A stretch of 34,230 nucleotides of DNA from an uncultured Rubrobacteraceae bacterium. GTDB taxonomy: Bacteria; Actinomycetota; Rubrobacteria; Rubrobacterales; Rubrobacteraceae. The notes beneath the pieces were generated by a model. It was not told the origin of the DNA. It was given only the letters and a program-made list of their open reading frames with translations, and made no database searches. The first letter of the stretch is position 1, and every line of letters begins with the position of its first letter. Shown piece after piece: positions 19-30,056 of this stretch. A program made the translations under genes and the position numbers. The stretch is taken from NCBI GenBank assembly GCA_902806065.1, contig CADCVE010000057.1:1-34230 (forward strand), written 5' to 3'.

Positions 19-526
19 CGAGACAGGCGAGGCCTTTTACTATTCCCGGTCTCGCGGGGAGCTCTGGCGCAAGGGGGAGACCAGCGGCAACACCCAAAGA
101 GTCGTCGAGGTCCGCCTGGACTGCGATGGTGACGCGCTGCTTTACAGAATCGAGCCGCGTGGGCCGGCCTGCCATACCGGCGAGAGAAGCTGCTTCTTTA
201 CGCCCCTGGCCGGTGCCCCTCTGGCGGGCTCGGATGAGGAAGTTCCGGACCTCGGACGGACCTTGACGCGGCTCGCCGGGACGATAGTCGAGCGCCGGCG
301 GGAGATGCCGGAGGGTTCGTATACGGCGAAGCTCTTCGGGCGCGGGACGGGGTACATCGCTCAGAAGGTCGGTGAGGAGGCGGTGGAGGTCGTCGTGGCG
401 GCGCTCGAAGGGGATCTACTCGCGGAGGAGACAGCGGACTTGCTGTATCACCTGCTGGTGTTGTTGGAGGAGCAGGGCGTAAGTGTGGGTGAGGTGGCGA
501 GGATACTCGATGAACGGCACCGGTAG
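17..526 (+). CDS. hisIE: Bifunctional phosphoribosyl-AMP cyclohydrolase / phosphoribosyl-ATP pyrophosphatase HisIE, 5' truncated
   Basis: Catalyses steps 2 and 3 of histidine biosynthesis in the cytoplasm. The N-terminal part is the HisI end: a WRKGETSGN motif, a DCDGDALL acidic metal-binding stretch and the [10 protein letters not shown] cysteine/histidine zinc region. After a linker comes the HisE domain with KVGEEAVEV and [14 protein letters not shown], the helical MazG-like acidic motif binding Mg-phosphoribosyl-ATP. About half of the HisI domain is missing because the contig starts here, and the first bases are adapter. Its 3' end overlaps the trpE start by 17 bases, so histidine and tryptophan genes are coupled; both use PRPP-derived intermediates. 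The overlap suggests co-translation. Identity is secure; the true start is outside the window. Confidence 0.93.
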
Positions 527-2042
527 GACCACCGACAAGAACCTCATGCCCTCGCTCTCCGATGCGAGGAGGCTCGCGCGGGAGTACGATGTCGTGCCGC
601 TGTACGCGGAGTTCATCGGAGACCTGGAGACCCCGATCTCCGCCGCGCTCAAGTTCGCGGATGAGGAGAACTTCTTCTTGCTGGAGAGCGCCGAGGCCGC
701 CGAACGCTTCGGCCGCTACTCCTTCCTGGGCTTCGATCCCAAACGCACCCTCTCCTACCGAAATGGTGTCTACACAGTCGTAGACGCTGATGGGGTGCGC
801 GAGGTGGCTGCGAAGGACCCGTTTCGCGGTCTTGCGGAGATAGTAGGCCGGAAGAGCGTCGCGCCGTTGCCGAACCTCCCGGCGTTCGTAGGTGGGGCGG
901 TGGGGTACTTCTCGTATGATGCCGTGCGCTATGTGGAGAGGTTGCCGGATGCTCCTCCGGACGAGCTTGAGGTCCCGGAGGCGTACTTCGCGGTGACAGA
1001 CACGCTGATCGTCTTCGATCACCTGCGGCACAAGGTGCTGGTGATCTCGCTGGTAGACGCCGCGAACCTGCGCGACGTCGAGGGTGAGGGCTTCGCCGCG
1101 GCCTACCGTCGCGCCGCCGACGATATCCGGCGCGTGACGGAGAGGCTCGCTGCTCCGACCCTGCATCGCGCCTTGCCTGACGGAGACGGGGCGAGCCTGG
1201 AGGTCTCCTCAAACTTCACGCGCGCCGGTTATGAGGAGGCGGTGGAGAAGGCCAAGGAGTACATCCGGGCGGGTGATGCTTTCCAGATCGTGCCGTCTCA
1301 ACGTTTCTTTGCCGAGATCGGCGACCTCGACCCGTTTCTCCTATACCGGGGCCTGCGTACCGTCAACCCTTCACCGTACATGACGTATCTGAAGCTGGGT
1401 GACCTGGCGCTCGTTGGAGCCTCGCCCGAGCCGCTGGTGCGCGTCGAGGGCCGCCGCGTGATGACCCGTCCGGCGGCCGGTACGAGGAGGCGCGGCGCGT
1501 CCCCCGAGGAAGATTCTCTGCTGGCCGAGGAGCTTCTGGCGGATGCCAAGGAGCGGGCCGAGCACGTAATGCTCGTGGATTTGGGGCGCAACGATCTGGG
1601 GAAGGTTGCGGAGATCGGGACGGTGGAACTAAAGAGTTTTATGGAGGTGGAGCGTTACTCGCACGTCATGCACATTGTCTCGACTGTCGAAGGGAACCTG
1701 CGCGCGGAGTACACGGCGCTCGACGCTCTTGCCTCGGCGTTCCCCGCCGGGACCGTCTCCGGGGCGCCGAAGGTACGGGCGATGCAGATCATCGACGAGC
1801 TCGAACCGACCCGGCGCGGCCCCTACGCGGGAGCGATGGGATACTACGGCATGGACGGACGCCTGGACACCTGCATCACCTTGCGCACGGCTCTGCTCAA
1901 AGGGAACCGGGCTTACTTCCAGGCCGGCGCGGGGGTCGTCGCGGACTCCGTACCCTCCCTGGAATACGAGGAGACGCGTAATAAGGCGGGGGCGATGGTG
2001 CGGGCGTTGGAGGTCGCGCGGAGCCGGGGGATGTGGCTGTAG
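510..2042 (+). CDS. trpE: Anthranilate synthase component I TrpE
   Basis: Converts chorismate with ammonia from TrpG to anthranilate, the committed step of tryptophan synthesis. About 510 residues, normal for the family. The N-terminal half carries LLES followed ten residues later by Ser, the known tryptophan feedback-inhibition motif, so the enzyme is probably allosterically inhibited. The C-terminal chorismate-binding domain shows [36 protein letters not shown] and [17 protein letters not shown]. The reading frame is open upstream to 483, but ATG 510 has GAGG-rich sequence before it and gives the usual N-terminus; ATG 546 is an alternative. It overlaps hisIE by 17 bases. The glutaminase partner trpG lies 20 kb downstream on the same strand, so the two subunits are made from separate transcripts. 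Confidence 0.95.
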
Positions 2043-2043
2043 A

Positions 2044-2280
2044 CTAGAGTCCTAGCAACGCGCTGATCTTCCGCCAGGCGAATCCTATTATTACCTCACC
2101 GTCTATGACGGTAGTGGGGGTGGACTGGGAGTTCATCCGAAGCAGCTCTTGCAAGGCGTCGGGATCGGCTTGAATGTTCTTCTCGGTAAACTCAACGTTG
2201 TTTTGAGATAGAAACTCTACCTCCGCGTGGCAAGGGCCTCAGCCGGGCTGCGTGTAAATGACTACGTCGTGTGCGGGCAT
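2044..2280 (-). CDS. Glutaredoxin-like selenoprotein candidate (in-frame UGA in U-x-x-C active site)
   Basis: Reading the minus strand from ATG 2280 through one in-frame TGA (2241-2239, codon 14) to TAG 2044 gives a 78-residue glutaredoxin/NrdH-size protein. It begins with MPAHDVVIYTQPG, then the TGA, then GPCHAEVEFL. The TGA sits exactly at the first cysteine of the C-x-x-C redox motif, giving U-G-P-C. The rest is intact: the cis-proline segment STPTTVIDGEVIIGF is present. A strong ribosome site (AGGAGG, 2287-2292) precedes the ATG. Just after the TGA, 2223-2205 can form an 8-bp stem with a GUU loop, as expected for a bacterial SECIS. A single nonsense mutation in a Cys codon is the alternative, but the position at the catalytic Cys, the intact frame and the hairpin favour selenocysteine. 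Thiol-disulfide exchange role is inferred from the family. Divergent from plsY. Confidence 0.82.
2205..2223 (-). promoter_or_regulatory. Putative bacterial SECIS hairpin of the glutaredoxin gene
   Basis: On the transcript, bases 16-34 after the UGA form GAGGUAGA / UCUAUCUC, eight pairs including one G-U wobble, closed by the triloop GUU. The loop begins with G at position 24 after the UGA. Known bacterial SECIS elements place a short apical loop with an early G about 16-37 bases after UGA, and in E. coli fdhF the loop G and U contact SelB. The wobble pair would be an A-C mismatch on the opposite strand, so the fold fits the minus-strand RNA specifically. No compensatory evidence is available from one sequence. 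Confidence 0.7.
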
Positions 2281-2348: not shown

Positions 2349-2978
2349 ATGTTGATAGGTGTTCTCCTGGTGCTTGGCGGATATGTCCTGGGCGCTATTC
2401 CTACTGGTCTCTTGGTGGGATGGGCCTATGGTGTGGACGTCCGCCGGGTGGGTAGTGGGAACATCGGGACGGCGAACGTGATGCGGGCCGCCGGGAAGTG
2501 GGCGGCCGTGCTTACCATGCTCGGGGATATGCTCAAGGGGCTCGTTCCGGTCGTTGTGGCAAGGTCACTGATCGAGAACGAGTGGATCATAGCAGCGGTG
2601 GCTTTAGCGGCGATAGCCGGACATTGCTGGTCGGTGTTCCTCGGGTTCGAGGGTGGCAAGGGGGTCGCAACGGGCGCCGGGACGAGTATTGGGCTCGCGC
2701 CTGTAGTAGGGCTCGGGCTGTTCGCGTTTTGGTGGGTTGTGGTGCTGATTAGCCGGTATACGTCGCTAGGTGCGATCTCGGTGATGGTGCTGAGTCCTAT
2801 CGCCTTTGTACTCTCGGGACAGCCGTGGCCGTACGTGGCGTATGCAGTGGTCGGGGGTGTGCTGGTTCTGTGGAGGCACCGGGAGAACGCGCGGGCGCTC
2901 CTAAGGGGAACGGAACGCAAGATCGGGGAGAAAGCCGTGAAAGAGAAGGCCGTGAAAGAAGATACTCGTGCTGGTTGA
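2349..2978 (+). CDS. plsY: Acyl-phosphate:glycerol-3-phosphate acyltransferase PlsY
   Basis: Integral membrane enzyme that transfers the acyl group of acyl-phosphate to glycerol-3-phosphate, the first step of phospholipid synthesis. About 209 residues with five or so hydrophobic segments. The three family motifs are visible: GSGNIGTANVMR, GHCWSVFLGFEGGKGVATG, and RHRENARALLRGTERKIG near the C-terminus. The tail after that is a short charged repeat (EKAVKEKAVKED) unlike the rest. ATG 2349 was chosen over upstream possibilities because it begins the first membrane segment and has a -10 box seven bases before it. The 3' end overlaps the acyl-CoA reductase start by 11 bases, tying two lipid genes together. 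Confidence 0.93.
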   Translation: MLIGVLLVLGGYVLGAIPTGLLVGWAYGVDVRRVGSGNIGTANVMRAAGKWAAVLTMLGDMLKGLVPVVVARSLIENEWIIAAVALAAIAGHCWSVFLGFEGGKGVATGAGTSIGLAPVVGLGLFAFWWVVVLISRYTSLGAISVMVLSPIAFVLSGQPWPYVAYAVVGGVLVLWRHRENARALLRGTERKIGEKAVKEKAVKEDTRAG

Positions 2979-5247
2979 GGCATATCGCGGAAAGACCGTG
3001 CTTCTCACGGGCGGGACCGGTTTCCTCGGGACGGCGCTCGTGGAGAAGATGCTCCGGAGTCTGCCGGAACTCCAGAGGTTGTACCTGCTCGTCCGGCCGT
3101 CACGCGACAAGGGCGCGAAGGAGCGGTTCGAGAAGGATATGCTCGGCTCCCCGGCCTTTTCGCGGCTGCGGGAGGAGCTTGGAGATGGTTTCGAGGAACG
3201 GGTCGCAGAGAAGGTGCGCGTCCTGGAGGGAGACGTGCACACGGACTCTCTAGGGCTGGGCGCGGAGGACCTGGCGGAGCTGTCGCGGGAGGTAGATGCG
3301 GTAATACACTCCGCTGCTTCGGTGGTGTTTGACGCGCCGTTGGACGCAGCGGTGGACTCGAACGTGCGGGGAACTCTCGGGTTGCTCGCGTTGGCCGGGA
3401 CGTGGGAGAAGGCACCGCTCTTCGTGCATGTCTCGACGACGTATGTAGCGGGAACGAAGCCGGGGCTCATCCCGGAGGAGATACCGGGGGAGCATTCGCC
3501 GAACGGCACGCGTCTGGACCCCAAGGGCGAGGTTGCGTTACTGGGTGGGGTGGTGCGGGAGGTCGAGGAAGCCTCCAGGGAGCGGGGGCTTGCGAGGCAG
3601 TTCGGGACGGAGGCGCGCCGGGAGCTTGGGATGGTGGGGGAGGAGACGGAGGTCGCCGAGAGGGTGGAGCAACTGCGGCGGGCGTGGGTGCGCGAGCGGC
3701 TCGTCGAGCGGGGGAACGAGCGGGCGCGGGAGCTTGGTTGGCAGGACGTCTACACGTTTACGAAGTCTCTGGCCGAGCGGCGGGTATTGGAGGAGCGGGG
3801 GGATCTGCCGCTAATAATATTGCGTCCGGCGATCATCGAGAGCAGTGTAGCGGAGCCTCATCCCGGTTGGATCCAGGGTTCTCGCATGGCTGATCCTATT
3901 ATCATGGCCTTCGCCCGGGGCATCCTGCGCGAGTTCCCTGGGGACCCGGAGAGCATCGTGGACTTCGTCCCCGTGGACCACGTGGTGAATGCTTTGATCT
4001 CCGCGGTCGCCCGGGGGCTCTCCGTTCGCCCCGCCGAACCCGAGGTCTACCAGGTCGCCTCCGGCCAGCGAAACCCCATACGCTACCGTGAGTTCTACGA
4101 ATACGTCCGGGAATTCTTCCTCGCAAACCCCCTGCGCGACTCGGGCGGCCGGCCCATCCCCGTCCCCGAATGGAGCTTTCCGGGACACCGGCGAGTCGAG
4201 GGTAAGCTCAAGGCGGAGCTCGTAGCTCTGAACATCGCCGGTAAACTCACGGCGCGCATGCCCGGTGGTCACCTGAAGACGGACCTGCGCGGCCGCGCGG
4301 CCCGGGCCGAGAAACGCGCCCGCATGAGCCTCTACTTCAGCCGCATCTACGGTACCTACGGCAGCATGGAGAGCATCTTCTCCTCGGCCCGCGTATACGA
4401 GTTGTACCGGAGCCTCCCCGAGGAGGACCGGAGCGTGTTCCCATTCGATATCGCGCAGGTGGACTGGAAGGCGTGGCTGCAGCAAACGCACCTGCCGGCC
4501 ATCACCCACAAGCCCGGGCGCAAGAAGCGGCGTGTCGTCTCGAAGGAGAGGCCGGGAGAGGTCGCGGCTATCTTCGACGTGGACGGAACACTCGTCGCCT
4601 CCAACGTCGTCTCTCACTACGCCTGGCTCAAGATGCGAGACCTGCCCGCCGCTCTGAGGCCCGCGTGGGCGGCCTCGTTTGTCTTGCGCGTCCCGCTGTA
4701 CTGGGCGCTGGACAAGGTCAGCCGCACGCACTTCAACCGTGTTTTCTACAAGAACTATAAGGGTTGGAAGCCCGCTCGCGCCCGCGCTCTTGGCAAGGAG
4801 AGCTTCTCCGGGTACGTCCTGAAGAGACTCTATCCGGAGGCTCTGGCGACCCTGCGTGCCCACAAGGAGGCCGGGCACCGCGTCGTTCTGCTCTCGGGCG
4901 CTCTGGACTTCGTGATCGCGCCGTTCGAAGACCTCGTCGACGACGTACTCACCGCGCGACTGGAAGAGGAAAACGGCGTGTATACCGGCGAGCTTTCGGG
5001 GGCGCCGATCGCGGGAGAGGCACGCGCCAGAATGCTCGCCTCGTTCGCCAGACGCCGCAATCTGGACCTCTCACGCTCCTACGCCTATGCCGACTCCATC
5101 TCCGACCTCCCGATGCTCGAAGCCGTCGGCAATCCGGTCGCCGTCAACCCGGATGGCAGGCTCGCAAAGGCGGCGAGGGAACGCGGGTGGCGTATAAGAG
5201 ACTGGCGCAAGAAAGACGCTCCGGGACCGCTGGACGGCGGCTTCTAG
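2968..5247 (+). CDS. Fusion of fatty acyl-CoA reductase (SDR type) and HAD-IB phosphatase
   Basis: A 759-residue two-domain protein. Residues 1 to about 480 are a fatty acyl-CoA reductase of the NAD_binding_4/male-sterility family: Rossmann motif TGGTGFLG at 14-21 and catalytic YTFTK (Tyr 262, Lys 266). Between them is a highly charged helical insert at roughly 190-255. Residues about 530-740 are a HAD-IB phosphatase: motif I FDVDGT (Asp 537, Asp 539), motif II LLSGALDF, and the late motif YADSISDLPMLE. The reductase would make fatty aldehyde or alcohol from acyl-CoA; the phosphatase substrate is unknown. GTG 2968 overlaps the plsY stop, implying translational coupling and a shared lipid role. 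Similar reductase-HAD fusions occur in actinobacteria, but a function for this one is not established. Confidence 0.85.
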   Translation: MLVEAYRGKTVLLTGGTGFLGTALVEKMLRSLPELQRLYLLVRPSRDKGAKERFEKDMLGSPAFSRLREELGDGFEERVAEKVRVLEGDVHTDSLGLGAEDLAELSREVDAVIHSAASVVFDAPLDAAVDSNVRGTLGLLALAGTWEKAPLFVHVSTTYVAGTKPGLIPEEIPGEHSPNGTRLDPKGEVALLGGVVREVEEASRERGLARQFGTEARRELGMVGEETEVAERVEQLRRAWVRERLVERGNERARELGWQDVYTFTKSLAERRVLEERGDLPLIILRPAIIESSVAEPHPGWIQGSRMADPIIMAFARGILREFPGDPESIVDFVPVDHVVNALISAVARGLSVRPAEPEVYQVASGQRNPIRYREFYEYVREFFLANPLRDSGGRPIPVPEWSFPGHRRVEGKLKAELVALNIAGKLTARMPGGHLKTDLRGRAARAEKRARMSLYFSRIYGTYGSMESIFSSARVYELYRSLPEEDRSVFPFDIAQVDWKAWLQQTHLPAITHKPGRKKRRVVSKERPGEVAAIFDVDGTLVASNVVSHYAWLKMRDLPAALRPAWAASFVLRVPLYWALDKVSRTHFNRVFYKNYKGWKPARARALGKESFSGYVLKRLYPEALATLRAHKEAGHRVVLLSGALDFVIAPFEDLVDDVLTARLEEENGVYTGELSGAPIAGEARARMLASFARRRNLDLSRSYAYADSISDLPMLEAVGNPVAVNPDGRLAKAARERGWRIRDWRKKDAPGPLDGGF

Positions 5248-19435: not shown

Positions 19436-20454
19436 TGCTCCGGCTAGCCATCCTGAGCTTCTGGCACGTACACGCCTACGACTACGCTCGGGAGGCCGAA
19501 AACCACCCCGGCGCGGAGGTCGTGGCCGTGTGGGACGAGGTCCCCGCGCGAGGCCGGGCGGAGGCCGAAGAACGCGGGACGCGCTTCTATGAGGACCTCG
19601 ACGAGCTGTTGTCCCAGCCGGAGATAGACGGCGTGATCGTAACGACTCCCACAGGCGCTCATCGCAACGTGATACCCGCCGCGGCCAAAGCGGGCAAGCA
19701 CGTCTTCACGGAGAAGGTCATAGCGCCCACTCTGCCCGAGACGGAGGAGATCGTCGCCGCCGTAGACCGCGCGGGAGTCGTGCTCTTCGTCTCGTTGCCT
19801 CGGCTCTACGCTGGCTACACCCGGGCCATAAAGGAGATCATCGATGGCGGCATGCTCGGGGACGTGACGTACCTTCGCGTCCGCGTCTCGCACGATGGCG
19901 CTTTGAGGACGGAGCGGAACCCCGAAGGTTGGCTGCCGTCCCATTTCTTCGACAGGGAAGAGGCCGCGGGGGGCGTGCTCACCGACTTTGGCTGTCACCC
20001 TCTGTACCTGATCCGCTACTTCCTCGGCATGCCCGGGAGTGTGAGCGCGAGCTACGGGCACATCACCGGCCGCGAGGTCGAGGACAACGCGGTCGTAACG
20101 CTACGCTACCCGAGCGGCGCTCTCGGAGTTGCGGAGGCTACCTTCGTCGGAAGGTACTCTCCCTTCGAGATCGAGGCGCACGGTACCAGAGGCAGCCTCC
20201 TGTTCGGTGTACCGGACCGCTCTCTCAGGCTTCGCGGCGAGAGGATTCCGGGCGGAGAGGAAGGCTGGGTTGTCAAAGAAGATCTACCGCTGGACCTGCC
20301 GTCTCCCTTCGAGCAATGGGTAGATCACGCCCGGCACGGGACACCCGCGGACGAGAACGTCCGGATCGCCACGGACCTCAGCGCCCTCGTAGAGGCGGCC
20401 AACCGCGCGGCTGTGGAGTCCCGGGACGAAAAGCCGAAAGCCGCCGGCGTCTGA
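19435..20454 (+). CDS. Gfo/Idh/MocA family oxidoreductase
   Basis: 339 residues. The N-terminal Rossmann domain begins RLAILSFWHVHAYDYA, contains VIVTTPTGAHRNVIPAAAKAGKHVFTEKVIA (written with the nucleotide-binding TPTGAH and the family EK pair) and is followed by the GFO_IDH_MocA C-terminal domain with TDFGCHPLYLIRYFLG, where the histidine is the usual catalytic candidate. The family performs NAD(P)-dependent oxidation or reduction of sugars, inositol and similar compounds. ATG overlaps the stop of the MOSC remnant by one base (TGATG), so translation was once coupled. It converges with the cyclodeaminase gene 14 bases away. Confidence 0.9.
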   Translation: MLRLAILSFWHVHAYDYAREAENHPGAEVVAVWDEVPARGRAEAEERGTRFYEDLDELLSQPEIDGVIVTTPTGAHRNVIPAAAKAGKHVFTEKVIAPTLPETEEIVAAVDRAGVVLFVSLPRLYAGYTRAIKEIIDGGMLGDVTYLRVRVSHDGALRTERNPEGWLPSHFFDREEAAGGVLTDFGCHPLYLIRYFLGMPGSVSASYGHITGREVEDNAVVTLRYPSGALGVAEATFVGRYSPFEIEAHGTRGSLLFGVPDRSLRLRGERIPGGEEGWVVKEDLPLDLPSPFEQWVDHARHGTPADENVRIATDLSALVEAANRAAVESRDEKPKAAGV

Positions 20455-20468
20455 CAAATAGCCCGCTG

Positions 20469-21419
20469 CTAGAAGTCGATCTCCCGTCCCACGTTCTGCT
20501 CCCGCGCCCGGTCGTAGACGATGCGGGCGGCGGCCATGTCCTCCAGCGCCAGGCCCTGGCTGGCGAAGAGGGTTATGTCCTCCGCGCTCCGGCGTCCGGG
20601 AACCTGACCTGCGATGATCTGCCCCAGTTCACGCACGGCTTCGGGCATTACGGCGCCGGTCTCCAGGCCCATGAGGAGGTTACCGGCCTCCAAGCCTAGC
20701 TCCTCGCGGGAGTCCACGGTTACGAGGCTGGCGCGCTTGACTACGTCGCGGTCGATCTCACGCTTGAACAGGAAGTTCGAGCCCGCGGCATTGACGTGGG
20801 TTCCTGGCCGGAGCCACTCCCCGTGCAATACCGGCTGCGAAGACGCGGTTACCGTTACTACGATGTCCTGGGCCGCCGGCTCCTCGGGCGAATGGGTGGT
20901 CTCTATCTCCAGCCCCAGCCGCTCGCTCATCTTATCGGCGAACGCCTTGCGCGACTCTTCGGTGCGGGTGTGGACTACGACGCGGTCCAGCTTTCTCACG
21001 GCGGCTATCGCTTCTAGCTGGCTCTCGGCCTGCCAACCCGCACCGTAGATGCCTAGAGTGTTAGCGTCTTCGCGGGCGAGGTATTTGGTGGCGACGCCGC
21101 TCGCGGCGCCCGTGCGGAGTTGGCCGAGCTTGTCCGACTGCATGATGGAGAGCAGCTCGCCGGACACCGGGTCGAAGAGCATCGTGTAGAAGCGGGCGCC
21201 AGTGCTGGCGACCGTGTAAGCCTTTAGTCCTAGAGCCCCGATATCCGGCGCTCCGGCGAACATTACGTTCAGGCCGCTTCCGGATAGGCCAACGCGGCGG
21301 CGGGCGCGGTTCGTGGCGCGGCCCTCTGCGTGCTGGCGAAGTATCTCCTCGACCGCGTCCAGGGTGGATGCCATGTCGAGGAGGTTCTCGACCTCGTTCT
21401 CTGTCAGGAGCAGGGTCAT
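20469..21419 (-). CDS. Ornithine cyclodeaminase / mu-crystallin family protein
   Basis: 316 residues, the family's normal size. The NAD-binding motif is LGIYGAGWQAESQLEAI, and the dimer/substrate region has SDKLGQLRTGAASGVATKYLA. Members deaminate ornithine to proline, or act as alanine or lysine/arginine dehydrogenases, so the name is a family call rather than a proven reaction. GGAGGAG lies six bases before ATG 21419. The membrane protein gene ends 34 bases upstream on the same strand, so the two are probably co-transcribed. Confidence 0.9.
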   Translation of the reverse strand: MTLLLTENEVENLLDMASTLDAVEEILRQHAEGRATNRARRRVGLSGSGLNVMFAGAPDIGALGLKAYTVASTGARFYTMLFDPVSGELLSIMQSDKLGQLRTGAASGVATKYLAREDANTLGIYGAGWQAESQLEAIAAVRKLDRVVVHTRTEESRKAFADKMSERLGLEIETTHSPEEPAAQDIVVTVTASSQPVLHGEWLRPGTHVNAAGSNFLFKREIDRDVVKRASLVTVDSREELGLEAGNLLMGLETGAVMPEAVRELGQIIAGQVPGRRSAEDITLFASQGLALEDMAAARIVYDRAREQNVGREIDF

Positions 21420-21453
21420 ACGTTCTCCTCCCTACGAAGTTGTACGTGTACTC

Positions 21454-22155
21454 TCATCGCGCCGGTTGCCTGGCCGCGCGAGGGCCGCCGACGAGCCCGA
21501 TGAGCATGAGCACCGAGACCACCGCGACCCAGAGCATCCCCACCAGGGCGGCGAGCAAGGGTACGAGAAAGTGTAGCAGCGCGAGGAGCGCCACCGCGAA
21601 ACCGGCCAACGCCAACCACCGGGGTAGAACGCCGGTCTCGAGCGCTACAAGTGAGGTGGCGCTTACCATCGCCGCCGTGCCTAACTGGCAGAAATGGTAC
21701 AACCACGTGGCGAGCGCCAGCGTCAGAAAGACGAGTTGAGCATCTGGCTCGAAGTCCAAAAAGCGGCCCAGGGTCGCCGGGTAGGAGATCTCGACTGCTA
21801 CCCCCGCCCACGCGAGCGTTACAAACACCACTCCCCCCGCCAACGCGACGGAGGAGAACCACCCCGCCTCTTCCTCGGCGCTTCGCAGTACGCCGTGCAG
21901 CGCTCCCAGGAACCACACGAAGAAAAAGGCGGCGAAGATGCTTAGGGTTCCATTGAAGAAGAGGAACGTCGCCACTTCATCGAAGTAGGCGGCTACGCCC
22001 TGTTCGTTGGAGGCGGGATCCGGCGCGTCCGGGGTACCGACGATGTACGCGGGGATAAACAGAATCACGTACAGGAGGCCGCTGATCCCGCCGAGCCGTG
22101 CCGCCCTGTCCGTAGTTTGTCGGCCTCCTGACTGTTCACTCACCCTCCGACGCAT
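21454..22155 (-). CDS. Polytopic membrane protein, DUF4386-like
   Basis: 233 residues with about six hydrophobic segments, starting near residue 20 (LGGISGLLYVILFIPAYIVG) and ending with LVGMLWVAVVSVLMLIGLVGG. The N-terminal GISGLLYVI and the topology resemble DUF4386/DUF4149-like proteins, but this assignment is by eye. No catalytic motif is visible. GGAGG stands eight bases before ATG 22155. It is divergent from trpG. Confidence 0.7.
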   Translation of the reverse strand: MRRRVSEQSGGRQTTDRAARLGGISGLLYVILFIPAYIVGTPDAPDPASNEQGVAAYFDEVATFLFFNGTLSIFAAFFFVWFLGALHGVLRSAEEEAGWFSSVALAGGVVFVTLAWAGVAVEISYPATLGRFLDFEPDAQLVFLTLALATWLYHFCQLGTAAMVSATSLVALETGVLPRWLALAGFAVALLALLHFLVPLLAALVGMLWVAVVSVLMLIGLVGGPRAARQPAR

Positions 22156-22272
22156 AGGTCTGCCTCCTTACCGCTTGCCTCCAACGCCGGAGCATACTAA
22201 ACGTGGCCGAGGGCCCGTGCAAGAAAGCTCAAACAACCGCGTCCGGCGAAAGCTGTCGCCTCGTTCTCTGGT

Positions 22273-22281
22273 TGCTACAAT
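22273..22281 (+). promoter_or_regulatory. Extended -10 promoter of trpGDC
   Basis: TGC-TACAAT (22273-22281) lies ten bases before ATG 22292, giving a leader of only three or four bases. A small inverted repeat GGCGA/TCGCC (22245-22249, 22256-22260) sits at the -35 region and could be an operator. There is no leader peptide with Trp codons, so classical attenuation is unlikely here. Confidence 0.5.
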
Positions 22282-22291
22282 CCTGGGAATC

Positions 22292-22855
22292 ATGCGGGTT
22301 CTACTTATAGACAACTACGACTCCTTTACGTACAACCTCGTCCAGTACCTCGGGGAGCTCGGGGCCGAGGTGCTCGTGCGGCGCAACGACGAGGTCTCGC
22401 CGGAGGAGGTCGCAGAACTCCACCCGGACAGGATCGTCATCTCGCCCGGCCCCTGCACGCCGAACGACGCTGGGGTCTCCTTGGAGATTATAGAGAAGGC
22501 CCCAACCGGGGTACCGGTACTCGGCGTGTGTCTCGGCCATCAAGCTATAGGGCAGGTTTACGGTGGGAAGGTCGTGCGCGGGGAGCCGGTGCATGGCAAG
22601 ACCGCGAAGATACTGCACGACGGCGAGGGGGTCTACAAGGGACTTCCGCAGGGCTTCGAGGCAACGCGGTATCACTCGCTCGTTATCGAGCCGGAGTCCA
22701 TGCCGGAGTGTCTGGTGGTCACGAGCCGAACCGGAGACGGCGTAATAATGGGTGTCAGGCACAAGGAACTGCCGGTGGAGGGTGTGCAGTTCCATCCGGA
22801 GAGCGTCCTCACGGGCGATGGCAAGGGCCTCTTGAAGAACTTCCTGGAGGGTTAG
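22292..22855 (+). CDS. trpG: Anthranilate synthase component II (glutamine amidotransferase) TrpG
   Basis: 187 residues. Provides ammonia from glutamine to TrpE. The class-I amidotransferase triad is evident: nucleophile Cys in GVCLGHQAIGQ, and His and Glu in GVQFHPES. The start LLIDNYDSFTYNLVQYLGELG is the family's usual N-terminus. The frame is open to 22007, but ATG 22292 with its close -10 box is clearly the start. The trpG product could also serve PabB in folate synthesis, as in many bacteria; no pabB is in the window. It is five bases from trpD. Confidence 0.95.
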   Translation: MRVLLIDNYDSFTYNLVQYLGELGAEVLVRRNDEVSPEEVAELHPDRIVISPGPCTPNDAGVSLEIIEKAPTGVPVLGVCLGHQAIGQVYGGKVVRGEPVHGKTAKILHDGEGVYKGLPQGFEATRYHSLVIEPESMPECLVVTSRTGDGVIMGVRHKELPVEGVQFHPESVLTGDGKGLLKNFLEG

Positions 22856-22859
22856 GCCC

Positions 22860-23891
22860 TTGCTGCGGGAGACCCTGAGAAAAGCCGCGGCTGGTGAGGT
22901 TCTCCCGGCGGGGGAGGCCGAGCGTTCGCTAGAGGAGATCATGTCGGGCACCGTAAACCCGGCGGTGACGGCCGCGCTGTTGACGGCCCTGCGGATGCGG
23001 GGCGAGTCGGTAGGGGAGATCGTCGGCTTCGCCCGCGCCATGCGTCACTTCGCCGAAAAGGTCGAGGCACCTGAAGACGTAGTGGATACCTGCGGCACCG
23101 GGGGTGATGCGAAGGGCACGATCAACGTCTCCACGGCGGCGGCCTTTGTAGCGTGCGGTGCGGGCGTCGTGATCGCCAAACACGGCAACCGGGCCGCCAC
23201 GAGCCAGGCTGGCTCCGCGGACGTCCTGGAGGCATTAGGCGCCGAGATAAGCCTCGGGCCAAAAGAGGTCGGCCAGTGTATAGAAGAGGTCGGCATCGGC
23301 TTCATGTTCGCCCGCACCCACCACCCCGCGATGCGTCACGTCGTGCCCGTCCGCGCCGAGCTTCCGTTCCGAACCATCTTCAACCTCCTCGGTCCTCTGA
23401 CCAACCCGGCCGGGGCCAGACGGCAACTCGTCGGTGTCTTTCATGCTGATTACGTGCGGGTGGTGGCCGAGGCTCTGCGGGAGCTCGAGGCGGAGAAGGC
23501 GCTGGTAGTGCATGGGGCTGACGGGCTCGACGAGATCACCGTCACCGGCCCCACCCTCGTCGCCGAGGTCTCGGGCGGTGAAGTCTCGGAGTACGAGATC
23601 TCCCCGGAACAGTTCGGCCTGAAGATCCACGCTCCGGACGGCTTGCTCGGCGGCGACGCTCACCTGAACGCGCGCGTACTTCGGGGTGTCCTCTCCGGCG
23701 AAGAAAGCGGCGCCGCGCGCGACGTGATCCTGCTGAACGCCGGCGCTGCTATATATGTCTCCGGCAAAGAGAGCCTCGAAGAAGGCATCCGCCTCGCCGA
23801 AGAGTCGATCACGAGCGGGGCCGCCGAGAAGGCTCTCGAAGACTTCGTCCGCGCAACCCGCCGCCTCGCGGGCGTCGGAGGAGCTACGTGA
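22860..23891 (+). CDS. trpD: Anthranilate phosphoribosyltransferase TrpD
   Basis: 343 residues. Transfers phosphoribosyl from PRPP to anthranilate. The PRPP-binding signature is DTCGTGGDAKGTINVST, followed by KHGNRAATSQAGSADVLEALG and the RAELPFRTIFNLLGPLTNPAG loop, all standard. Start TTG 22860 has GGAGGG about ten bases upstream, inside the trpG end. Its stop overlaps the trpC GTG (GTGA), implying coupling. Confidence 0.95.
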   Translation: MLRETLRKAAAGEVLPAGEAERSLEEIMSGTVNPAVTAALLTALRMRGESVGEIVGFARAMRHFAEKVEAPEDVVDTCGTGGDAKGTINVSTAAAFVACGAGVVIAKHGNRAATSQAGSADVLEALGAEISLGPKEVGQCIEEVGIGFMFARTHHPAMRHVVPVRAELPFRTIFNLLGPLTNPAGARRQLVGVFHADYVRVVAEALRELEAEKALVVHGADGLDEITVTGPTLVAEVSGGEVSEYEISPEQFGLKIHAPDGLLGGDAHLNARVLRGVLSGEESGAARDVILLNAGAAIYVSGKESLEEGIRLAEESITSGAAEKALEDFVRATRRLAGVGGAT

Positions 23892-28641: not shown

Positions 28642-29358
28642 TCAGGACCGTATGGCGAGGATCTCGCTTCTCTCCGCTAGAAGCTTCTGGATCTCCTCTT
28701 CGTTCTCCTCATAGGCGCCCTCACCGAAGTGCTGAAAGCGGATGAAGCCATCCGCATCTATGAGGTAGCGGGCAGGCCAGTAGCGGTTGTCGTAGGCGTC
28801 CCAGGTGGCGCTGTTGTTGTCGAGGACGACGGGATAGCGGATTCCCGCCTCTTCGACGGCCTTCTGGACGCTGGCCGGGTCCTTCTCAAACTCGAACTCC
28901 GGCTTGTGGACGCCGATGATCAGTAGTCCATCGTCCTCGTACTCCTCGTGCCACTGGTTGAGGTACGGCTGGACGTTTTGGCAGTTGAAGCAAGTGTAGG
29001 TCCAGAACTCGAGCAGGACTACCTTCTCACCGAGGTTCTCGCCGATGGAGACGCCGTCGGTGTTTATGAATCCGGTTGGGGCGAGGATCTCGTTTGCCCG
29101 CGGGAACTCCGCTTCCTTGCGTGCGATCCGCTCCGCCGCATCTTCGCGTTCTGCTTTCCTGGATGCCGCTTTGTCTTCGACCTCCGAACCTGGCTCGGTG
29201 GACGGCTCGCTGGTCTGCGCGACCGGCGCCGGGTCCACCTGTGTCTGCGTTTCATCCGAATTGGCTCTGCCAAACCGGAACTCGATGAAAACGATGGCGC
29301 CGACTATTAGCAGGGTGGCTAGCGTGAGGAGTACGGGTCTGGGTGTCAGAGAGCTCAT
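28642..29358 (-). CDS. Membrane-anchored thioredoxin-like protein (TlpA/DipZ C-terminal type)
   Basis: 238 residues. N-terminal membrane anchor (about 9-27), an acidic/proline linker (about 30-85) and a thioredoxin domain with active site FWTYTCFNCQNVQPYL (C-x-x-C as CFNC) and the later WPARYLIDADGFI. This is the redoxin form found beside CcdA, with its domain outside the cytoplasmic membrane. It would pass electrons from CcdA to extracellular disulfides, for instance in cytochrome c maturation. ATG 29358 overlaps the ccdA stop (ATGA). The frame is open far upstream only as a shadow of ccdA. Confidence 0.9.
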   Translation of the reverse strand: MSSLTPRPVLLTLATLLIVGAIVFIEFRFGRANSDETQTQVDPAPVAQTSEPSTEPGSEVEDKAASRKAEREDAAERIARKEAEFPRANEILAPTGFINTDGVSIGENLGEKVVLLEFWTYTCFNCQNVQPYLNQWHEEYEDDGLLIIGVHKPEFEFEKDPASVQKAVEEAGIRYPVVLDNNSATWDAYDNRYWPARYLIDADGFIRFQHFGEGAYEENEEEIQKLLAERSEILAIRS

Positions 29359-30056
29359 AGCAGTACCTCGTTTAGTAGCTGAAAGTTGGCGAGAAGGGCG
29401 AGCTTGCCGGTGAAGACGAGGATGCCCATGCCGATGAGGACGGCGCCGAAGGCTACGTGCAGATGCCGCGCTCCCCGGCGGTGCTTCTTGATGAACGCGA
29501 ATGTCCGGGAGGGGAAGAGGCCGACGAGAAGGAACGGCGCTCCGAGACCGAACGAGTAGGCGAGCAAGAGGGGGAACGCCGACGCCGGCTGGGATGCCGC
29601 GAGCGCGAGCGTGCTCCCCAAGATCGGGCCGACGCATGGTGTCCAGGCTACGGCGAACGACGCGCCGAAGAGGATGGAGGTAAGGCGTCCTGGCTTGGAT
29701 CTCCCCGGCTTCACGGAATCTTCCCTGTCTAGCAGAGGTATTCGGAGTAGACCCGTCAGGTGCAGCCCGAGGATGATGACGACCGTGCCGGCGAGGCGTG
29801 AGAGCCACACCAGGATTTCCGTTGCAGCTCCTTGCAGCAGTGCGTTCAGCGCCACACCTAAAGCCGCGAATACGGCCGAGAACCCGGCCACGAATAGCAC
29901 GACGTTCGAGAACACGTCTCTCCGCCGGAGGTCCGAGACGCCGAGCGAGGTACCCGCCAACTGCGCGAAGAAAGCGGGGATCACCGGCAGCATGCACGGC
30001 GAGAGGAACGATACGACTCCGGCGGCGAGAGCGAGGGCGAGGGTCGGTTCGGTCAT
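29355..30056 (-). CDS. ccdA: Cytochrome c biogenesis protein CcdA
   Basis: 233 residues with six hydrophobic segments. The two redox cysteines are in FLSPCMLPVIPAFF and VAWTPCVGPILG, both in the membrane as in CcdA/DsbD-beta. It transfers reducing equivalents from cytoplasmic thioredoxin across the membrane to the TlpA-like protein with which it overlaps. ATG 30056 is the start. It is divergent from trpF; a small CCCCG/CGGGG inverted repeat (30072-30087) lies in its leader. Confidence 0.92.
   Translation of the reverse strand: MTEPTLALALAAGVVSFLSPCMLPVIPAFFAQLAGTSLGVSDLRRRDVFSNVVLFVAGFSAVFAALGVALNALLQGAATEILVWLSRLAGTVVIILGLHLTGLLRIPLLDREDSVKPGRSKPGRLTSILFGASFAVAWTPCVGPILGSTLALAASQPASAFPLLLAYSFGLGAPFLLVGLFPSRTFAFIKKHRRGARHLHVAFGAVLIGMGILVFTGKLALLANFQLLNEVLL

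Follow-up and report, generated by a model that had tools for sequence, protein, structure and literature searches.

The window (the whole 34,230-nt stretch analysed, from an uncultured Rubrobacteraceae bacterium) contains, at 2044–2280 on the minus strand, a predicted selenoprotein glutaredoxin gene of 78 amino acids (MPAHDVVIYTQPG-U-GPC...) that runs from an ATG at 2280–2278 to a TAG stop at 2046–2044. Translation of this frame meets a single internal stop, the TGA at 2239–2241, which is codon 14 and which, if read as selenocysteine (Sec), would supply the first catalytic residue of the CxxC motif; the resolving Cys17 is encoded by TGC at 2230–2232. The Shine–Dalgarno sequence AGGAGG occupies 2285–2290 on the same strand, 4 nt 5′ of the ATG. 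A preliminary description of this DNA had proposed a 78-codon minus-strand frame with its only TGA at the first catalytic Cys, preceded by a strong ribosome-binding site, and both features were found exactly where it had placed them. The flanking genes are trpE (anthranilate synthase I; 483–2042, plus strand), which is convergent and ends 1 nt from the glutaredoxin stop codon, and the divergent plsY (glycerol-3-phosphate acyltransferase; 2352–2978, plus strand, with the start codon chosen in the present analysis). Both are conserved neighbours: trpE, plsY or both lie beside the glutaredoxin gene in many relatives, making trpE–grx–plsY a conserved locus. Adjoining plsY, the interval 2968–5247 (plus strand) encodes a fatty acyl-CoA reductase-like NAD-binding domain fused to a HAD hydrolase domain, which is also conserved in relatives. 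Because 31 frames in this GC-rich window passed a loose filter for a single TGA and a codon-like GC3, a read-through frame is by itself no proof, and the weight falls on homology and conservation; the decisive point is the match to a redox family with the UGA exactly at the predicted catalytic residue.

With Cys in place of Sec, the protein matched Pfam Glutaredoxin (PF00462) at 52.7 bits against a cut-off of 22.9 (5.1e-14), and it carries the UxxC motif, the invariant cis-proline (Pro55) and, according to Foldseek, a thioredoxin-like fold. The AlphaFold model has a pLDDT of 90.3, and Foldseek ranked the selenoprotein glutaredoxin cGrx1 (7c10; TM 0.92, 49% identity) first, followed by BC3987 and NrdH redoxins; together with a match to 7c10 at 6e-18, this bears out the earlier claim that the glutaredoxin fold is intact. 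The best family model was the YruB-type TIGR02196 (70.6 bits, below its cut-off of 88.55), the UXX-star model NF041212 gave 56.3 bits, and none of the curated cut-offs of NF041212, NF041211 and NF041114 (66, 100 and 72, respectively) was reached; the protein also scores against NrdH models. Since its scores fall under the TIGR02196 and NF041212 cut-offs, automatic annotation may miss the gene.

We searched 39 Rubrobacteraceae genomes and found a relative at 1e-6 in 24 of them. Besides the source genome, 13 genomes have a near orthologue (about 55–73% identity) with exactly one TGA, always in the same alignment column, and in two orthologues, those of G027 and G028, the Cys codon TGT stands in its place, which answers the question of what homologues carry at codon 14. 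Among named records, the TGA form occurs in the cultivated Rubrobacter marinus SCSIO 52915 (L056), in Rubrobacter metagenome-assembled genomes (MAGs) and in a Chloroflexi MAG (L057). The in-frame UGA thus aligns with the Cys of homologues, and both the UGA and the coding sequence downstream of it are kept between species, as in selenoprotein genes. The sequence 3′ of the UGA is under purifying selection, with pN/pS of 0.31–0.42 against most near orthologues and extremes reaching 0.55. The tree places the window gene within the Sec orthologues, and three changes of the Sec/Cys label are needed, one of them inside genus g12 (Sec in G026, Cys in G027 and G028). This natural Sec/Cys pair within one genus lends itself to the question of why Sec has been retained.

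A putative bacterial SECIS (bSECIS) hairpin, GAGGUAGA-GUU-UCUAUCUC, lies at 2205–2223 (minus strand), with 8 bp and a loop at 2213–2215. The 19-base hairpin with a triloop starting G-U, previously put at 24 bases after the UGA, is therefore confirmed: 23 nt intervene, and base 24 is the first of the loop. The bSECIS model calls for a loop of 3–9 nt, an upper stem of 4–16 bp, a G within the first two loop positions followed mostly by G or U, a UGA-to-loop distance of 16–37 nt and a minimum free energy of at most −7.5 kcal/mol (PMC13188914). The window hairpin lies within each of these limits, with a 3-nt loop, an 8-bp stem, a spacing of 23 nt and −8.7 kcal/mol over the 24-nt hairpin region (−12.1 over 54 nt), and the loop is GUU or GUA in every clade-1 UGA member. 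Folding of the single 54-nt sequence gave z = −0.54, which is not significant alone, and comparison with 2000 synonymous recodings, drawn with window codon usage, gave p = 0.059 for the energy and p = 0.0085 for the 8 pairs. The hairpin is convincing because relatives keep it; in the window sequence alone it is not beyond chance. In the same recoding test, 13 distinct Rubrobacteraceae orthologue sequences gave p values of 0.001–0.059 for energy and 0.002–0.035 for pairing, so that the orthologue hairpins are mostly stronger than synonymous recoding gives. Across 14 orthologues, pairing was kept in 98.2% of cells, with one compensatory change (U-A to C-G) plus G-U/A-U exchanges, and fell to 25–73% in a control in which the partner was slid by 1–3 columns. 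In most UGA members, two codons that are uncommon in the window genes, CTA (38 of about 586 for Leu) and TCT (35 of about 320 for Ser), complete the stem; the Cys orthologues of genus g12 have CTC TCC instead, and their stem is broken. The Chloroflexi member retains 7 of the 8 pairs, and its energy is not lower than expected by chance (p 0.24). An Rfam scan of the hairpin matched no family in a library that may lack a general bacterial SECIS model.

The source genome (3.75 Mb, 95% complete) encodes the machinery for Sec insertion. On contig C94, selA (20356–21684; profile match of 500 bits, over the cut-off) and selB (21716–23521; 354 bits, over the cut-off) are followed directly by tRNA-Sec (at 23565; Rfam 66.5 bits against a cut-off of 47; ARAGORN anticodon tca), forming one cluster. 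The selD gene (L018; G000:C48:5196–6113, minus strand) has one in-frame TGA of its own, at KAG-U-ASKFAP. This is the known Sec site of SelD, which is thus predicted to be a Sec-containing selenophosphate synthetase. With selA, selB, selC and selD all accounted for, as expected of a genome with a selenoprotein gene, the absence of Sec machinery that would have told against the preliminary description does not apply. Among the 18 Rubrobacteraceae genomes with any UGA member, selA is present in 17 and tRNA-Sec in 16. The exceptions are both drafts: G037 (75% complete) has neither, and G019 (about 640 contigs) lacks tRNA-Sec. In one relative, tRNA-Sec scored over the cut-off at two loci (G016:C49:139475 and G016:C19:10563).

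Other redoxins were encountered in the course of these searches. A second candidate Sec glutaredoxin of the source genome (G000:C14:1912–2142, minus strand; L051, 1501–1740, minus strand) has an in-frame TGA in place of the first active-site Cys (VQKPG-U-LFC), with the hairpin CGGAGG-AGUU-CCUCCG 3′ of this codon; the protein is about 40% identical to the window protein and belongs to a separate, well-supported Rubrobacteraceae Sec clade. Two Sec glutaredoxins and a Sec-containing SelD would give the Sec machinery its clients within one genome. In G016:C56 and G026:C4 (L043 and L050), a Cys glutaredoxin frame shows an apparent frameshift after KGVFF and is near-identical in these genomes of two genera. 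Within the window, 28642–29997 (minus strand) encodes a protein with a Redoxin (AhpC-TSA) domain and the motif WTYTCFNC; its translation probably begins within the frame, near MSSLTPRPVLL, because the upstream part of the open reading frame looks non-coding. A phylum-wide search returned one-TGA matches to the redoxin alignment in other families (for example, G040:C23, G055:C13, G261:C5, G341:C84 and G115:C78), which suggests further Sec glutaredoxins there, these matches being counted whatever their TGA position.

Three other accounts of the UGA codon were weighed. The first extends Sec insertion rather than replacing it: at low selenium the UGA would terminate translation, and Cys paralogues (contigs C8 and C74) would replace the Sec forms (C57 and C14). 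The source genome does have at least two Cys paralogues beside its two Sec ones, in keeping with such a dual output, but these Cys proteins may belong to separate families and serve other functions, and we consider dual output rather unlikely. It is far less probable that UGA is read as another residue, Cys or Trp, through a suppressor or stop-codon reassignment: any read-through would yield a glutaredoxin and a Cys-inserting tRNA would suit the catalytic site, but none of the 14 window genes examined has an internal TGA, so there is no general reassignment, the genome has a tRNA-Sec with anticodon tca together with selAB, and the SECIS-type hairpin tracks UGA, not Cys. Least credible, to the point of being negligible, is a pseudogene, codon 14 of a Cys glutaredoxin having become a stop by ordinary mutation or through an error of sequencing; the single internal stop, the draft state of the genome and the Cys paralogues elsewhere in it might suggest this, but it is refuted because 13 orthologues from other genomes share the TGA with purifying selection behind it (pN/pS as above), while the hairpin is conserved, the start and Shine–Dalgarno sequence are intact and the Sec machinery is full. 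The reading first put forward, a selenoprotein glutaredoxin with a UxxC site, is upheld by the machinery, the shared TGA, the Cys orthologues and the hairpin kept in TGA members. Insertion of Sec is strongly supported by comparative genomics, and 2044–2280 is almost certainly a functional gene for a selenoprotein glutaredoxin.

We propose that translation of this selenoprotein would initiate at the ATG at 2280, and that the hairpin 3′ of UGA codon 14 would recruit SelB and Sec-tRNA(Sec), so that Sec is inserted without termination. The product would be a small oxidoreductase of thioredoxin fold, with UGPC as its active site, carrying out selenol-based thiol–disulfide exchange in which, by analogy with the family, Sec14 may act as the nucleophile on substrate disulfides and Cys17 may then resolve the selenenylsulfide. 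Glutathione was considered as the electron donor and set aside: GCS2-type ligases are present, but GshB (PF02955), looked for in the source genome, gave no match, which makes this donor doubtful. Against the MshC model, the best match in the source genome reached 269 bits, where the cut-off is 485, and could be a cysteinyl-tRNA synthetase. Thioredoxin reductase is the reductant of NrdH proteins, against whose models the window protein scores. It is conceivable, if tentative, that this is a Rubrobacteraceae-centred Sec redoxin group outside current family models, in a host apparently without glutathione synthetase, that draws on a non-glutathione reductant (thioredoxin reductase or another thiol) and perhaps serves desiccation and radiation tolerance. 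MsrA, which is a selenoprotein partner in Alkaliphilus, was also considered for that role here and rejected, the one MsrA match in the source genome being without TGA.

Glutaredoxin selenoproteins were reported in 2005–2006 from Geobacter, Alkaliphilus, Moorella and Sargasso Sea metagenomes (PMC1088965, PMC1794560), and UxxC glutaredoxin selenoproteins are listed with experimental references (PMC13188914). Selenoprotein glutaredoxins having been known since 2005, the window gene adds to an established UxxC family. A literature search for a Rubrobacter selenoprotein glutaredoxin returned only PMC1794560, the main text of which reports none and mentions Rubrobacter only once, as R. xylanophilus with 5 selenoproteins. 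What is new here is the Rubrobacteraceae orthologous group, the Sec/Cys exchange inside one genus and the second predicted Sec paralogue in the genome; the gene represents a conserved redox enzyme of a stress-tolerant actinobacterial family that standard annotation is likely to overlook.

The Geobacter, Alkaliphilus, Moorella and Sargasso Sea proteins are likewise glutaredoxins with Sec in the active site, a bSECIS-type element and Cys homologues, whereas the gene described here belongs to a Rubrobacteraceae orthologous group with trpE–plsY synteny. The UXX-star families NF041212, NF041211 and NF041114 are also glutaredoxin-like with Sec at the first active-site position; in the window protein the second Cys is retained (UxxC), whereas the motifs UxxT and GxGU listed for the UXX-star families suggest that others do without it (PMC13188914). 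BC3987 (3zij), the second-best structure match, is Cys-based, not Sec-based. The closest solved relative is cGrx1 of Alkaliphilus (Clostridium) oremlandii (PDB 7c10 and 7c12), and a UGA-bearing Alkaliphilus relative (L067) has its UGA at the same codon as the window gene. We take 7c10 to be the protein of Kim et al. 2011 (reference 85 of PMC13188914), who reportedly described cGrx1 as a selenoprotein glutaredoxin of this organism. It differs from the window protein in host (Bacillota for cGrx1, Actinomycetota for the window gene), in the residues after Sec (PHC in cGrx1 in place of GPC, GAC or PAC), in the QPG before Sec, which the window protein has and cGrx1 lacks, and at the cis-proline site, where cGrx1 reads MAVP in place of STPT.
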